A stretch of 41,204 nucleotides of DNA from Syntrophales bacterium (lineage in GTDB: Bacteria; Desulfobacterota; Syntrophia; Syntrophales; UBA8958). Both the position numbers and the translations under genes were made by a program. The stretch's first letter is position 1. Each line of letters starts with the position of its first letter. The DNA lies in contig JAOAFE010000015.1 in assembly GCA_026416455.1 (NCBI GenBank), positions 1 to 41,204 on the forward strand. The letters run 5' to 3'. Below are positions 1-14,308 of the stretch, one piece after another. Under the pieces are notes generated by a model that saw nothing but the letters and a program-made list of their open reading frames with translations, did not search any database and had not been told where the DNA came from.

Positions 1-1082
1 CGCTGCCCTGCGAAGAGACCGATGTATTGCTTCCGCAGACCATCATCGAAATCGGTGAGCCATATCTCATAGGGAGTCTTTAGCGTTTCCAACAGGTAAA
101 GCCCGTAGCGCTCCCGTGTTTCCTGCCTTTTGGCCACCATGTGTGGAAGTAAATCCAGGTGGATGATCGCCTTATCGCCGTCGGCGTTGTCGATATCGAT
201 AAATTTCCGTGTTTCCGATAAACCAAAAGCCTCAGCAAGAATGTTCACAGCCTCTTCTTTGGTACGCCCGGCTTTGAGCAAAGGTGGAGCAGAAATTCTA
301 TCTTCATCCGGCACATCTCTAAGGTCCGGTCTCCCATAATCCTTCCAAGTCTTTTGCCCCGTTAAGATTTTCATCGGCCGATCTGCTCGCTCTCTATCCC
401 ACAGGACACTCGCCTCTCCCGGGTTGTAATCCCAACCCGGATCGATCCCTTTGGGAAATGGTCTCATCTCGCCTGTGCGAGGATCACGCTTAACTTCCAT
501 TTCATCGTCGGGATGATGCGTAACTTTCAGCCCATCACGTTCCATTTCCCTTCTGGAAAGTGACACCACCGTACAGCGACAATTCCAGCCATTCGGCGGA
601 TAGTGCGTTTTCCACCAGGGATGATCCGCCGGCAATACCGTATCGTTCCAGGCGCGATGCTGTGGTCGCGTCTTGCGGTCATTCACAGCCACATAACGCC
701 AATACGGTCTGGCTTTGAGTACATCCGGATCCGTCATGGCACGGTAATGCCCCACGCTGTAGGCGGTCTGGATATTCACGTTAAATATCGTCGCAAGCCT
801 CCGCGGGCTTCCCAGCTGCACCTCTTCACCGTCCACAACCTGGCGTCCCCACCAGCCCTTTCTCTGCAAAATGGGAGTCAAATTCTTCTTAAATTCCTCG
901 AACGTGGTCCCTTCGCTCATGGCGCGATCCAGTTCGTCCCGGATATCCTTCAAAATATCGAGACGCATGGCCTTCGCCACCGTGAAGGCTTTCACGTGGT
1001 CCTCATGCCACATCTCATGCCATCGCCACGAGAAGCGGTAGCCCTTCTGGCGAAAGTATGCGATGGCCTCTTCGGGAGGCAT
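1..1082 (-). CDS. Mu gpF / SPP1 gp7-type phage minor head protein with C-terminal PBECR2-like nuclease domain (partial)
   Basis: The minus strand is open for 360 codons from an ATG at 1082 to the window edge, so the C-terminus is missing. Residues 1-130 are mostly helical (PPEEAIAYF, then WHEDHVKAFTVAKAMR), as in the SPP1 gp7/Mu F head-morphogenesis family. Residues 131-172 hold the family core: a VNDRKTRPQHR stretch, HPWW, and PPNGWNCRC at 162-170. A linker leads to residues of about 235-360 that resemble the phage Barnase-EndoU-ColicinE5/D-RelE-like nuclease 2 fold: LLKAGRTKEEAVNIL, then HMVAKRQETRERYGLYLLETL, YEIW and KQYIGLF. Homologues as I remember them start about ten residues earlier. 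Here an in-frame stop lies 25 codons upstream with no other ATG between, so the N-terminus may be clipped. GGGAAAG precedes the ATG. No other phage gene is visible to the right, so this is a prophage edge or remnant. The head-protein call is firm; the nuclease-domain call is from memory of the family. Confidence 0.8.
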   Translation of the reverse strand, partial: MPPEEAIAYFRQKGYRFSWRWHEMWHEDHVKAFTVAKAMRLDILKDIRDELDRAMSEGTTFEEFKKNLTPILQRKGWWGRQVVDGEEVQLGSPRRLATIFNVNIQTAYSVGHYRAMTDPDVLKARPYWRYVAVNDRKTRPQHRAWNDTVLPADHPWWKTHYPPNGWNCRCTVVSLSRREMERDGLKVTHHPDDEMEVKRDPRTGEMRPFPKGIDPGWDYNPGEASVLWDRERADRPMKILTGQKTWKDYGRPDLRDVPDEDRISAPPLLKAGRTKEEAVNILAEAFGLSETRKFIDIDNADGDKAIIHLDLLPHMVAKRQETRERYGLYLLETLKTPYEIWLTDFDDGLRKQYIGLFAGQ

Positions 1083-1285: not shown

Positions 1286-1319
1286 CACCCGAAGAGAGGA
1301 AATGTTAAGGAGGAGAAGA

Positions 1320-2648
1320 ATGGGCAAGAGAGTGGTAATTATCGGTGGTGGGGCGGGTGGAGCGTCCGTTGCGGCGGAAGCAAAGAGAACCGACCCATCT
1401 CTGGAGATAGTAATTTTAGAAAAGGGGAATTATGTTTCCTTTTCCGCTTGACCCATGCCTTACTACATCGGAGATGTAGTAAAAGATCATAAGTTATTGA
1501 TCGCGAGGACACCGGAAAAGTTCAAATCGGCAGGGATAGAAATTAGACTATCGACGGAAGTTCATAGCATAGATTATCCTCAGCATTACGTTGAGTGTTC
1601 AGGAAATGAACGCATCCCTTTTGATATCCTCGTTCTTGCCCTCGGTGCGGAGGCCGTCGTGCCCGGAATAGAAGGTATTCGTAAGCCCGGTGTCTTTTTC
1701 TTGCGAAATCTTGAAGACGCTATAGCAATTAAAGGCTGGCTGCGGGAAAAGAAGATAGAAAAAGTGGTCATCTTGGGTGCGGGGTTCATCGGTTTAGAAA
1801 TGGCAGAGGCCTTAAAGATGGCGGGTATTCAAGTCACCATCTTGCACAAAGCAAAATGGCCGGCCAACAGATGGGACGAAGAACTATCTTCATTTATGCA
1901 CGAAATTTTAGTCGCCCGCGGAGTAGAATTCGTCCCAGAGGTGGAGGTTAAAGAGATAGATGACGGGGAAAGAGGTCTGTTAGTTAAAACCGATAAGGGA
2001 AATTGGGAGGCTGGCCTAGTGCTCGTGGCCACGGGCGTAAGACCGGACGTGCGTCTCGCAAGGTCGGTGGGAGCGGCTTTGGGGCGCTCGGGTGCCATTG
2101 CCGTTAATTTCAACCAAAAAACTTCCCTCGATGATGTGTATGCTGTGGGGGACTGCGCCGAGGTCTTCCATCGCGTAAGTAAGAAATGGGTCAATTTTCC
2201 TTTGGGAGATATTGCCAATAAACAAGGGCGCGTTGCGGGTAGAAATATAGGCGGTAGGCCAATGGTTTTCGAAGGGGTGGTTGGGGCCCAATCCTTTCGT
2301 CTCTTCGAGTTGGAATGTGCGGCAACTGGCCTTTCGGAGAAAGAGGCTGTCGATGCGGGTTATAATCCCGTAAGTACCATTATCTGGGGAAGTGCCACTG
2401 CGCCGTCTATGGGGAGGAAACGCTTGGGGCTCAAATTGATCGCCGACAAATCTACGGGCAGAATCCTCGGTGCCCAAGCCGTGGGTTTAGAGGGCGCGGT
2501 AAGTAGGATCAATGTCTTGTCTGTAGCGCTGTTCGCTGAGATGAATCTGGATCAGATAGGTTATCTCGATTTGGCGTATGCGCCTCCCTTTGGCCCGGCG
2601 TGGGATATTGTGCATGTTGCTGCGCAGACGTTGAAAAGGATGATCTAA
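1320..2648 (+). CDS. CoA-disulfide reductase/NADH oxidase-family flavoprotein, predicted selenoprotein (Sec44 encoded by TGA)
   Basis: This is a FAD- and NAD(P)H-dependent pyridine nucleotide-disulfide oxidoreductase of 442 residues, the family's usual length, if TGA at 1449-1451 is read as selenocysteine. The ATG at 1320 is set by AAGGAGG six bases upstream. Residues 4-14 are the FAD dinucleotide-binding site (RVVIIGGGAGG). The NAD-binding site is VVILGAGFIGLEMAE, and the second FAD contact is DDVYAVGDCAEV. Codon 44 sits in SFSA-TGA-PMPYYIGDVV and aligns with the catalytic cysteine of CoA-disulfide reductase (SFANC-ALPY in Staphylococcus aureus Cdr). The 43 codons before and 398 after the TGA stay in one frame without any other lesion. 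The usual substrate is CoA disulfide, a polysulfide or O2; which one applies here cannot be read from sequence. The alternative is a nonsense mutation or sequencing error. A gene caller would truncate it to start at ATG 1455. Confidence 0.8.
1449..1482 (+). promoter_or_regulatory. Candidate bacterial SECIS element downstream of in-frame TGA
   Basis: After TGA (1449-1451) there is an 8-base spacer, then TTACTACATC (1460-1469), loop GGA (1470-1472) and GATGTAGTAA (1473-1482). This is a perfect 10-bp stem. The apical loop begins 19 bases after the TGA and starts with G. Both agree with bacterial SECIS rules: a loop roughly 16-37 nt from the UGA and a G in its first two positions. The hairpin lies in codons for the conserved PYYIGDVV stretch. 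Confidence 0.65.
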
Positions 2649-2672: not shown

Positions 2673-3087
2673 CTAAGGTAATCGACCTGATTCAATCAAC
2701 TGGTTTAAGATTTGGATTATTTTGGGTAATGCATCGAGGGCAGCTTTTTCCCCTTCCAAGATGGCCTCATGCTTTTTACTCAAGTCGCTGGAAGCAATAT
2801 GCCCGTCACGTGGTTTGATTACCACTTCGGCTTTTTTCAGTTGATTTTCCGAAATGCGTGCGTGCATGATGTCAATAGATTGAAGAATTGTTTCGATGGT
2901 CCCTTTAGGAAGGGTCGAACTTAAGCCGGAAGATATATCAACAGCGATGACTATGTCTGCCCCCATTTTTTTGGCGAATTCCACGGCGACGGGACTCACC
3001 ACTCCTCCATCAACGTGTCGGGTTGAAAAACGGTGGGGATAGGAGAGCTGGCGTCACTCGTCCTCTCCGTATCGCCTCTCGCAAAGC
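2673..3087 (-). pseudogene. Decayed C-terminal fragment of a patatin-like (RssA-type) phospholipase
   Basis: The minus-strand frame ending at 2673 encodes HVDGGVVSPVAVEFAKK and MGADIVIAVDIS. This is the typical second half of RssA-type patatin hydrolases, in which the Asp of DGG/DGA is catalytic. Just upstream, in another frame, KALREAIRR and PALLSPPFF continue the same family (LREAIR.., PGIFPPV). The two parts are separated by a one-base frameshift near 3017. A TAG stops the upstream part after about ten further residues. The N-terminal half with the GXSXG nucleophile is absent. The fragment cannot make an active lipase, and I regard it as a remnant. The remaining 109-residue ORF (GTG at 3002) is probably not a functional gene. 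Confidence 0.7.
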
Positions 3088-10178: not shown

Positions 10179-11369
10179 ATGGACGATTACAGAAAATATG
10201 TAAGCAAACATTATAATCGTCTCTTGGAGCAGTGTAAGGTCCGTCTGGACGAGGTGGAAAGGGAGTATCCAGAACCAAGAGAAGATTTCCAGGCCCTGCT
10301 AAAGGCAAGGGGTATTTCCCGTCGCAGTTTTCTCAAATGGACTGGTGTGATGACGACAGCCTTGATGCTGCCACCCATATTTAAACCCATGGTCGCACGA
10401 GCAGCCGAAAATTTCAGCCGCATCCCGGTTATCTGGTTACACTTTGCGGAATGTACCGGTTGCAGTGAAGCGATTCTTCGTTCTTCCTATCCCAACGTCG
10501 ATGATATTTTACTGGAGACCATTTCGCTGGAATACCATGAAACCCTGATGGCAGCAGCGGGATATCAGGCTGAAAAGTGCCTGGAAGAGGCGATGGAACA
10601 TTTTGCCGGCAAGTATGTCTGCGTCATTGAGGGCGCCATACCGAGGGGGTTGAACGGTCAGTATTTGAGGCTGGGGCCCAAAGGCGAGACGGGGCTTGCT
10701 TTAGGGAAGAGGGTGGTATCTAAGGCGGCTATGACGATAAGTCTCGGTGCATGTGCCGTCTGGGGTGGAATACCAGCGGCGTCCCCAAATCCGACTGATT
10801 GTGTGGGTGCATCGAAAGCCTTGGGTGTTTCCACTGTAAACATTGCCGGATGCCCTCCGAATGAAGTGAATTTTGTTGGTACGTTACTTCACTTTATCAT
10901 GTTTGGTTCTATGCCTCCTCGAGATGGAGAGGGAAGGCCTCTTTGGGCTTATGGAAAGAGAGTGCATGACTTCTGTGAACGCCGGCCCCATTACGACGCT
11001 GGCGAATTCGTAGAAGAGTGGGGAGACGAAGGTGCCAAAAAGGGATGGTGTTTGTATAAAGTTGGATGCAAAGGCCCGTACACGTTCGCCAATTGCCCTC
11101 ATTTACGTTTTAACGACCACATGTCTTGGCCGGTGATGGCGGGTCATGGTTGCATTGGCTGCACGGAAAGAGGTTTTTGGGACACGATGGCACCCTACGA
11201 GAAACCGATCCAGGAAGCGGCCATCGGTGGCGGGGAGAGAACGATTGATAATATTGGGATTATTCTGACCGCAGCCACGGCGGCCGGCGTAGCAGCCCAT
11301 GGCGTGTATACAGCCATAAGAAAGAAAGATAAGAATCAGGAAGAACAAAAACAAGAGGAACGCGAGTAG
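10179..11369 (+). CDS. hyaA: [NiFe] hydrogenase small subunit, Tat-exported and membrane-anchored
   Basis: The electron-transfer subunit of a periplasmic uptake hydrogenase (group 1 type), carrying three FeS clusters. It has 396 residues. The Tat motif RRSFLKWTG lies at 48-56, followed by a hydrophobic stretch and a cleavage region near VARAAE. CTGCSEAIL holds the first proximal-cluster cysteines, and GACAVWGGIPAA, AGCPPNEVNFV, CPHLRF and GHGCIGCTERGFWD hold the rest. A C-terminal membrane helix (IGIILTAATAAGVAAHGVYTA) anchors it. The n-region of 47 residues before the Tat arginines is longer than usual. The ATG at 10179 has GAGGGGG upstream and no later ATG precedes the Tat motif, so the start is probably right. 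Nineteen bases separate it from the large subunit. The hya name follows operon order, not proven orthology. Confidence 0.93.
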   Translation: MDDYRKYVSKHYNRLLEQCKVRLDEVEREYPEPREDFQALLKARGISRRSFLKWTGVMTTALMLPPIFKPMVARAAENFSRIPVIWLHFAECTGCSEAILRSSYPNVDDILLETISLEYHETLMAAAGYQAEKCLEEAMEHFAGKYVCVIEGAIPRGLNGQYLRLGPKGETGLALGKRVVSKAAMTISLGACAVWGGIPAASPNPTDCVGASKALGVSTVNIAGCPPNEVNFVGTLLHFIMFGSMPPRDGEGRPLWAYGKRVHDFCERRPHYDAGEFVEEWGDEGAKKGWCLYKVGCKGPYTFANCPHLRFNDHMSWPVMAGHGCIGCTERGFWDTMAPYEKPIQEAAIGGGERTIDNIGIILTAATAAGVAAHGVYTAIRKKDKNQEEQKQEERE

Positions 11370-11388
11370 GGACAGTGGGAGGTGAATC

Positions 11389-13059
11389 ATGACCAAAAGA
11401 ATGATAATTGATCCCGTAACGAGAATAGAGGGTCACCTGAGAATCGAGGTGGAACTTGACAATAATAATACCGTGAAGGACGCATGGAGCAGTATTACCT
11501 TATGGCGGGGCATAGAAACAATTCTTAAAGGCAGAGATCCCCGCGATGCGGGACTTATAGTACAAAGATTCTGTGGTGTCTGTACGTATGTGCACTATGA
11601 GGCGAGTATAATGGCTTGTGAGGATGCCTTTGGAATCAAACCTCCACCCAATGCCCGTCTGATAAGGAATCTCACACAGGGTATCTGGTATCTCGGCGAC
11701 CATATTATGCATTTTTACCATCTCCACGGTTTAGATTGGGTTGATATAGTAAGCGCCCTCAAAGCGAATCCCAAAGCGGCAGAAGAATTAGCGAGGAGCA
11801 TTCACCCCAATCCATGGAACTGTTCGGCCTCGCATTATAAGGCAGTGCAGGAACGACTAACCCGTTTTGTGAAGTCAGGAAGACTCGGGCCTTTCGCCAA
11901 TGCTTATTGGGGAAATCCCTCTTATAAACTACCACCAGAGGCCAATTTAGTCATTGTATCTCATTATCTCGATGCCTTGCAGATTTCTAAAGTGGCGGCC
12001 CAAGCTCAGGCGATTTTCGGAGGCAAAAATCCACATCCTCAGCATCTTGTGGTTGGAGGTGTGACTTGTGTCCTCGACATGTTGACTCCCAGCCGTTTAG
12101 GCGAATTCCTCTTCCGGGCCAAGGAAGTGAAGGACTTTGTAGAACGGGCTTACATCCCCGATGTCCTTTTGGCAGCAAGATACTATAAGGATGAAGGCTT
12201 GGCTGGTATTGGTGGCGGGGTTAAGAATTACCTCTGTGTGGGGGGGTTCCCACTCAACGATGATATGTCGAGTTTCCTATTCCCCAAAGGGGTGGTGAAA
12301 AATAGGGACCTAAGTAAAGTATGGCCCCTGGATGAAAAATTGATTACCGAGGAGGTCACACATTCTTGGTACGAAGGCAAAGAGCCACAGCATCCCTATA
12401 GCGGAACGACGGTACCCAAATATACTGGCCTCAGTAAAGATGGATACCTTAAGGGAGAGGAAAAATACAGCTGGTGTAAAGCTCCCCGCTACGCCGGAGA
12501 ACCTTGTGAAGTAGGACCACTGGCGCGTATGGTCGTCGGTTATGCGGCAGGGGATAAGAAAATCAAGTCCTTGGTAGACGAAACACTGAAAGTGACCGGT
12601 TTACCAGCTAAAGTGCTTTTCTCCACCTTAGGGCGGACGGCGGCAAGGGCCATTGAAACAAAGTTGGTGGCAGATCAGATCGAGCCCTGGTTGAATGAGT
12701 TGGTGAAGAATATCAAAAGTGGAGATACGAGGACCTGGACGTACTGTGAGGTGCCCAAAGAGGGCCAGGGGCGGGGTATGACGGAGCCACCACGAGGGGC
12801 TTTGAGCCACTGGATAAAAATTAAAAATTATCAGATAGAAAATTATCAAGCAGTCGTGCCATCTACCTGGAACTGCTCACCTCGAGATAAGAATGGGAAG
12901 CGGGGTCCCTACGAAGAATCACTGATTGGAACGAAGTTGGCCAAGGCAGACCAACCTCTGGAAATCTTGCGTACCATTCACTCCTTCGACCCATGTATGG
13001 CCTGTGCGGTACATATCATTGAGCCAAGTGGTGATGTGCACGAGTTCAAGGTTTGTTAA
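11389..13059 (+). CDS. hyaB: [NiFe] hydrogenase large (catalytic) subunit
   Basis: The 556-residue catalytic subunit binds the NiFe(CN)2CO centre and oxidises H2. The N-terminal ligand motif is RFCGVCTYVHYEA (about residues 61-73) and the C-terminal motif is DPCMACAVH. The last 14 residues after that His (IIEPSGDVHEFKVC) are the tail removed by the maturation protease once Ni is loaded. The first cysteine of the C-terminal motif is Cys, so this is not a [NiFeSe] enzyme. GGGAGGTG precedes ATG 11389. The operon continues with the cytochrome b gene 11 bases downstream. Confidence 0.95.
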   Translation: MTKRMIIDPVTRIEGHLRIEVELDNNNTVKDAWSSITLWRGIETILKGRDPRDAGLIVQRFCGVCTYVHYEASIMACEDAFGIKPPPNARLIRNLTQGIWYLGDHIMHFYHLHGLDWVDIVSALKANPKAAEELARSIHPNPWNCSASHYKAVQERLTRFVKSGRLGPFANAYWGNPSYKLPPEANLVIVSHYLDALQISKVAAQAQAIFGGKNPHPQHLVVGGVTCVLDMLTPSRLGEFLFRAKEVKDFVERAYIPDVLLAARYYKDEGLAGIGGGVKNYLCVGGFPLNDDMSSFLFPKGVVKNRDLSKVWPLDEKLITEEVTHSWYEGKEPQHPYSGTTVPKYTGLSKDGYLKGEEKYSWCKAPRYAGEPCEVGPLARMVVGYAAGDKKIKSLVDETLKVTGLPAKVLFSTLGRTAARAIETKLVADQIEPWLNELVKNIKSGDTRTWTYCEVPKEGQGRGMTEPPRGALSHWIKIKNYQIENYQAVVPSTWNCSPRDKNGKRGPYEESLIGTKLAKADQPLEILRTIHSFDPCMACAVHIIEPSGDVHEFKVC

Positions 13060-13070
13060 GGGAGGGTGCT

Positions 13071-13742
13071 ATGGAACATTACGTTGCACCGCTTAAACAC
13101 TGGACGGTGGCCATGAGGATAAACCATTGGGCCATGGCTATATCCATCTTCGTGCTCATTGCCACGGGTTTTTTAATTGCTTATCCCGTGACCATCTCAA
13201 AGGGAGAGACGTGGCTCAAGTTTTCCGTGGGGGAGATCAGATTCTGGCATCTTTTCTTCGGTGTACTGCTCACCTTTCTCTTTATTTGGCGGCTGTATCT
13301 AGCTTTCTTTTCCCGTTTCCATGCCGACTGGAAGGACTTGTTCGCATTTCTAAATATTAAGGACCTCATTCACCAGATAAAATTCTATCTCCTCATTGAA
13401 AAGGAAGGGCCACCCCACCGAGGGCTGTACGGGCCAATGCAATCTCTTGCATACTTGGGTCTCTTCGGGCTTATTTTCCTCATTATCATAACGGGTCTGA
13501 TCCTCATGGGGGCGGGTTACCACGCGGGAATCACCGCTTTCATCTACTCAATTTTGAAACCTGTGGAGCGCCTACTTGGTGGACTGGCAATGGTTAGATA
13601 TATACACCATGTACTGACATGGTGCTTTGTACTCTTTATCGTCGTTCACGTTTATATGGCATTCTGGTACGATGCTGTGCTCAAGGAAGGCACACTCTCA
13701 TCGATGGTCAGCGGGTACATGTTTAAGAAAGAGGGGCATTGA
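13071..13742 (+). CDS. hyaC: Hydrogenase cytochrome b subunit
   Basis: Di-haem membrane subunit of 223 residues that passes electrons from the small subunit to the quinone pool. Four membrane segments are visible: MAISIFVLIATGFLIAYPV, FFGVLLTFLFIWRLYLAFF, LAYLGLFGLIFLIIITGLIL and CFVLFIVVHVYMAFWY. Candidate haem-ligand histidines are in RINHWAM, WHLFFG and the late YIHHVLTW and VVHVYMAF motifs. ATG 13071 is preferred over an upstream in-frame start because GGGAGG precedes it. A terminator-like hairpin follows the gene. Confidence 0.93.
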   Translation: MEHYVAPLKHWTVAMRINHWAMAISIFVLIATGFLIAYPVTISKGETWLKFSVGEIRFWHLFFGVLLTFLFIWRLYLAFFSRFHADWKDLFAFLNIKDLIHQIKFYLLIEKEGPPHRGLYGPMQSLAYLGLFGLIFLIIITGLILMGAGYHAGITAFIYSILKPVERLLGGLAMVRYIHHVLTWCFVLFIVVHVYMAFWYDAVLKEGTLSSMVSGYMFKKEGH

Positions 13743-13770
13743 TTTTCCATCGGGAGCAGATATTTCTCGT

Positions 13771-13810
13771 AAAAAAGGGGGATTAAGAATTCCCCCTTTT
13801 TTGATTTTTC
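13771..13810 (+). terminator. Rho-independent terminator-like hairpin between structural and maturation hydrogenase genes
   Basis: AAAAAAGGGGGA (13771-13782) pairs with TCCCCCTTTTTT (13791-13802), followed by further T-rich sequence. It lies in the 74-base gap between hyaC and the protease gene. No separate promoter is obvious after it, so partial termination that lowers maturation-gene expression is the simplest reading. Confidence 0.7.
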
Positions 13811-13816
13811 GACACC

Positions 13817-14308
13817 ATGGGCAAGAACAGAGTAACCATTCTCGGTTTAGGGAACATACTTCTTAAAGACGAAGGCTTTGGGGTCCATTTCGTCCGGTGG
13901 CTGGACAGTCGGTGGCAATTTCCCGTCGGGGTGGAGTTGGTCGAAGGAGGGGTGATGGCCTATGCCCTTTTAGGGCCTATCTGCGACTGTGAAAATCTGA
14001 TTGTCATCGATGCATTAAAGGTAAACGATGAGCCTGGGTCTATTTACCGCCTCACCCTAGAAGAATTGAAGCCCAAACTACCACCCCCTACCTCCGCCCA
14101 TGAGGTCCAGTTTCTGGACGTTCTTTTCCAAGCGGACCTATTAGGGGAGGCGCCCGAGGTGATCTTTCTGGGTATCGTTCCTTTAGATATGGGTGAAATG
14201 GACATGGAGATGACTCCCCTCATGAAAGAGAAATTCCCCCTCATGGAAAATGTTCTTTTACAGGAGCTTTCCCGTTACAATATTACGCCTGTAAGAAAAA
14301 ATGCATGA
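13817..14308 (+). CDS. hyaD: Hydrogenase maturation protease (HyaD/HycI family)
   Basis: This endopeptidase removes the C-terminal tail of the large subunit after nickel insertion. The 163-residue protein starts VTILGLGNILLKDEGFGVHFV with the conserved GNxLxxDEGxG site (Glu binds Ni). It continues with ELVEGGVMAYALLG, the Asp-containing ENLIVIDALK, and the late STSAHEVQFLD-like His region (PTSAHEVQFLDVL). It overlaps hypA by eight bases. Placement directly behind the structural genes supports action on this hydrogenase. Confidence 0.92.
   Translation: MGKNRVTILGLGNILLKDEGFGVHFVRWLDSRWQFPVGVELVEGGVMAYALLGPICDCENLIVIDALKVNDEPGSIYRLTLEELKPKLPPPTSAHEVQFLDVLFQADLLGEAPEVIFLGIVPLDMGEMDMEMTPLMKEKFPLMENVLLQELSRYNITPVRKNA

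Follow-up and report, generated by a model that had tools for sequence, protein, structure and literature searches.

A gene near the start of the window, i.e., the whole stretch of 41,204 bases, which is an entire contig of a 2.1-Mb genome (96% complete), very probably encodes a selenoprotein, with selenocysteine (Sec) inserted at the active site of an enzyme resembling CoA-disulfide reductases (CoADR). The reading frame, the position of the in-frame UGA, a hairpin downstream of it, the Sec machinery of the genome and the pattern of Sec/Cys exchange among relatives, all established computationally, point to this reading. The protein is a new branch, with the site motif UPxP, of a known Sec family.

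Apart from the terminal TAA (2646-2648), the TGA that forms codon 44 is the sole stop in the frame. Its read-through yields an uninterrupted protein with the site ...VSFSAUPMPYYIGDVVKD... (Table 1). An earlier note on this DNA had placed the TGA exactly on the single catalytic cysteine of the family, in a frame intact on both sides and behind a strong Shine-Dalgarno sequence, and all three points hold. It had also foreseen a truncated call lacking the FAD-binding N-terminus, and this is indeed what ORF callers output. That translation truly starts at this second ATG, leaving the N-terminal part untranslated, is nevertheless very improbable: the strong Shine-Dalgarno sequence lies at ATG 1320 and none precedes 1455; the FAD-binding glycine motif is encoded upstream, in a region conserved in homologues, and would be lost; and the enzyme would die without FAD and its catalytic residue. 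Plain ORF calling cuts off the FAD-binding end of such a gene.

Table 1. Features of the window.
Feature	Position	Strand	Basis and remarks
Phage Mu F-like protein with C-terminal PBECR2 nuclease-like domain	3-1082	-	Contig end, prophage-like
Shine-Dalgarno AAGGAGG	1307-1313	+	Sequence; 6 nt to ATG 1320
Full gene of the putative selenoprotein	1320-2648	+	Read-through translation, 442 aa; CoA-disulfide/persulfide reductase-like
In-frame UGA, putative Sec44	1449-1451	+	Aligned with catalytic Cys of 6ruz/5l1n; TGA/TGT/TGC column in relatives
Truncated ORF expected from a standard gene caller, start judged false	1455-2648	+	No Shine-Dalgarno before 1455
bSECIS hairpin, 10 bp, loop GGA (1470-1472)	1460-1482	+	Folding, relatives; conserved core 1462-1480
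Short ORF, convergent, directly downstream	2673-3002	-	Pfam: no match
Hydrogenase-like gene cluster	10179-14308		ORF inspection
tmRNA gene, tag ANDYEYALAA	30356-30711	+

The four genes that the earlier note had proposed to search for, selA (617 bits), selB (374 bits), selD and selC (a tRNA-Sec with anticodon tca), are all present in the window's genome. Among 100 relatives, selB scored over the cut-off in 94; it was missing from G003, G010, G018, G034, G043 and G066, some of which are incomplete. None of these six genomes has a TGA orthologue, and selB is found in every TGA-bearing relative. In G003, which is well assembled and 97% complete, the orthologue has been kept with the codon TGT. The selD gene of the window's genome (G000:C33:139969-140898) carries one in-frame TGA and is probably itself Sec-containing, and selB there adjoins an fdhD-like ORF, named by inspection.

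Published criteria for a bSECIS element are a loop of 3-9 nt with a G in its first two positions, a stem of 4-16 bp, a distance of 16-37 nt from the UGA and a minimum free energy (MFE) of at most -7.5 kcal/mol (PMC13188914). The window hairpin lies within all of these values: its arms (1460-1469/1473-1482) pair exactly over 10 bp around the 3-nt loop, 18 nt from the UGA, with an MFE of -10.7 kcal/mol (shuffle z -2.6). Folding the wider region 1430-1520 gave -27.8 kcal/mol (z -4.5). The fold suggested in the earlier note is hence SECIS-like, and the perfect hairpin with a G-starting loop at the correct distance exists as it was described.

Of 86 Sec genes, nearly all retain the inner 8 bp (1462-1469/1473-1480), and only about 20 have the outer two pairs. 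In the Cys orthologues, the core is broken in 17 out of 17; the seven inner Watson-Crick pairs are all kept in 72 of 74 Sec genes vs. none of the 17 Cys genes. Compensatory changes occur among the Sec genes at pairs 1463-1479, 1464-1478 and 1466-1476, the first being C-G in the window and U-A in most. The 3' arm includes codon 53 (Val), for which 63 of 64 Sec genes use GTA; the remaining Sec gene, L020, carries ATA there, paired with a compensating TAT in the opposite arm. Elsewhere downstream in the Sec genes, GTA accounts for 230 of 2120 Val codons (11%), and among the Cys genes, only one of 15 has it at codon 53, where other codons or residues mostly stand. On these sequence comparisons, the hairpin is under synonymous constraint solely in genes with the TGA.

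The codon at the site was read in 79 orthologues from the 100 relatives, the window's own counted in; by their names, the nearest relatives belong to Smithellaceae, Syntrophaceae/Syntrophobacterales and further deltaproteobacterial MAGs, from which the window is taken to lie in Syntrophales. The site reads TGA in 64 and TGT or TGC in 15, with no other codon, so that the alignment proposed earlier does show a TGA/Cys column at residue 44. On a tree built with the Sec site and the hairpin columns masked, the state changes at least eight times on supported (starred) branches. The hairpin tracks the Sec state in six to eight of eight independent pairs and runs opposite to it in none (median p 0.008). 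Cys is most simply a derived state within the window's clade because the sister groups outside it also carry Sec; the direction itself is beyond proof by this method. Such Cys orthologues occur within Syntrophales. For example, L038, from a single-contig genome of 3,179,300 bases (G044), belongs to the same clade as the window protein at about 54% identity, and has CPMP at the site, a TGT codon and an altered hairpin core, although selB is still present in G044. Sec/Cys swaps in close relatives, nearly all with selB, offer matched pairs for measuring the benefit of Sec, and bear on what it gains in a flavin disulfide reductase.

The same column settles whether the gene is simply an ordinary Cys-type gene hit by a sequencing error or a recent nonsense mutation, i.e., a pseudogene. 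The gene does come from a single MAG-like contig, and TGA is one base away from TGC and TGT. However, the same TGA stands in 64 orthologues with conserved flanks and no further stop, and the synonymous constraint on the hairpin is limited to TGA genes. The shared TGA column refutes this explanation, to which we give practically no probability.

The claim of the earlier note was thus sound as to a selenocysteine at a CoADR-like catalytic site, as the TGA/Cys column, the hairpin and the sel genes indicate, and failed as to a new selenoprotein, since published reviews already list the family. It appears there as 'FAD-dependent oxidoreductase (CoA-disulfide reductase, NADH oxidase)' (PMC9312934, PMC13188914), with the motif UGxP in the newer one. 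The listing goes back to a 2006 survey with one 'NADH oxidase' selenoprotein, from Geobacter metallireducens (PMC1794560), and one further sequence came from the GOS marine metagenome in 2008 (PMC2398784). The Geobacter enzyme (WP_011365774.1) belongs to the same family as the window protein (TIGR03385/COG0446), with Sec at the catalytic position, and is set apart by its published motif, UGxP instead of UPxP. We found no paper on the UPxP branch, though supplementary tables may count it, and no literature on Sec in Syntrophales or Smithella for this enzyme. What is novel is the spread and conservation of the Syntrophales branch: the Sec form is prevalent in this order and has many further members in the phylum, whereas the earlier records amount to one Geobacter genome and one metagenome sequence.

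A search of 395 genomes from the phylum turned up many further homologues with a TGA; the site motifs include UPxP, UExP, USEP, ULMP, USIP, UGxP and UAxP. In the tree, the UPxP and UExP-type sequences form one supported group and the UGIP/USIP sequences (VGRVVDD) another; a small number with UGIPYN fall inside a mostly Cys group, and the build of the hairpin differs between these Sec groups. The UGxP-type Sec sequences of the search fall into clades of their own, share about 36-41% identity with the window protein and have another hairpin build. The UPxP branch is itself a separate, order-wide clade with its at least eight Sec/Cys exchanges. It is conceivable, if rather doubtful, that its Sec arose independently of the Geobacter-type UGxP, as an order-wide second origin followed by about eight Sec-to-Cys reversions with SECIS decay; if true, this would be a natural replicated experiment on the retention vs. 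loss of Sec.

A second Sec clade (USIP/UGIP/UAVP: L103, L105, L106, L108-L111, L215, L217-L219, L221-L227, L230 and L232), about 36-41% identical to the window protein and differing from it in hairpin build, is a paralogue in several Syntrophales genomes. L216, L228, L229 and L231, with UGIPYN or UGMPYN, sit within a group that is mostly Cys (CGMPYN) and likely represent further Sec/Cys exchanges.

The protein contains PF07992, PF00070 and PF02852 (FAD, NAD(P) and dimerisation domains). These three domains, one flavin-facing Cys/Sec, and matching alignment and structure place it among the CoA-disulfide/persulfide reductases (single-Cys PNDOR). In NCBIfam, the best matches are to models of CoA-disulfide reductases (NF007123, E 4e-119; TIGR03385, E 2e-116). 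With C in place of Sec in the query, the scores stay below the curated cut-offs (398 vs. 458 bits and 389 vs. 579 bits, respectively); hence, they do not secure this substrate assignment. The PDB search returned 6ruz (E 3e-95), the NADH-dependent CoA-disulfide reductase of Thermus, with 42% identity over a full-length alignment; the Pyrococcus horikoshii CoADR (4fx9, 5l1n) aligns over its full length at 37-38%. Foldseek gave TM scores of 0.91-0.93 against these CoADR structures, whose catalytic Cys aligns with Sec44. The characterised enzymes have Gly after this Cys (CGxP), whereas Pro follows Sec in the window protein (UPxP). The AlphaFold model, made without FAD, CoA or a second subunit, has low confidence at residues 43-56. 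Arg23, Arg63, Asp278, Arg304 and Tyr420 are invariant across the Sec and Cys forms; Arg23 and Tyr420 would be CoA-site positions, by analogy with the S. aureus enzyme.

A substrate of the CoA/persulfide class appears somewhat probable. Among solved structures, those of CoADR and CoA-persulfide reductases come closest, and the invariant Arg23 and Tyr420 presumably lie at the CoA site. A selenoprotein of the same fold acting on another substrate, e.g., an NADH oxidase/peroxidase or the reductase of another small molecule, is a serious possibility at a little under even chances. Scores against the CoADR models fall short of their cut-offs, the Geobacter relative in the literature was originally called an NADH oxidase, UPxP is conserved, a rhodanese domain is missing, and the thioredoxin-reductase-like flavoprotein upstream in relatives hints at general thiol redox. 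The NADH-dependent persulfide reductase Npsr (3nta, 6pfz) shares the core fold and single catalytic cysteine with the window protein. It bears a C-terminal rhodanese domain (PMC7969121), for which Pfam gave no match in the window protein, which stops at residue 442.

For the selenoprotein with a CoA-type substrate, the following mechanism is proposed. Translation would begin at ATG 1320, and at UGA 1449, SelB would deliver Sec-tRNA, guided by the hairpin downstream within the coding sequence; a stop at this codon would yield a useless 43-aa peptide. The product, by analogy putatively a homodimer, would be a FAD enzyme from the group of CoA-disulfide/CoA-persulfide reductases, lacking a rhodanese domain. 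Electrons would pass from NAD(P)H via FAD to the centre at Sec44, where Sec and bound CoA probably form a selenenyl-sulfide, comparable to Cys-S-S-CoA in the Cys enzymes. The selenolate may then attack CoA-disulfide, CoA-persulfide or polysulfide.

In relatives, trxB-like (thioredoxin-reductase-like) and lgt genes lie upstream of the orthologue; this context fits thiol redox in general and names no substrate. At their place in the window, the phage Mu F-like gene lies directly upstream, and since it occupies this side at the contig end, the context is uninformative for the window copy. Inspection of in-frame TGA codons with open flanks across the window gave no convincing Sec site except 1449. 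The hydrogenase-like large subunit has Cys, not Sec, at its C-terminal site (DPCMAC). The short ORF directly downstream of the selenoprotein gene appears to be the end of a formerly longer gene whose upstream part is degraded.
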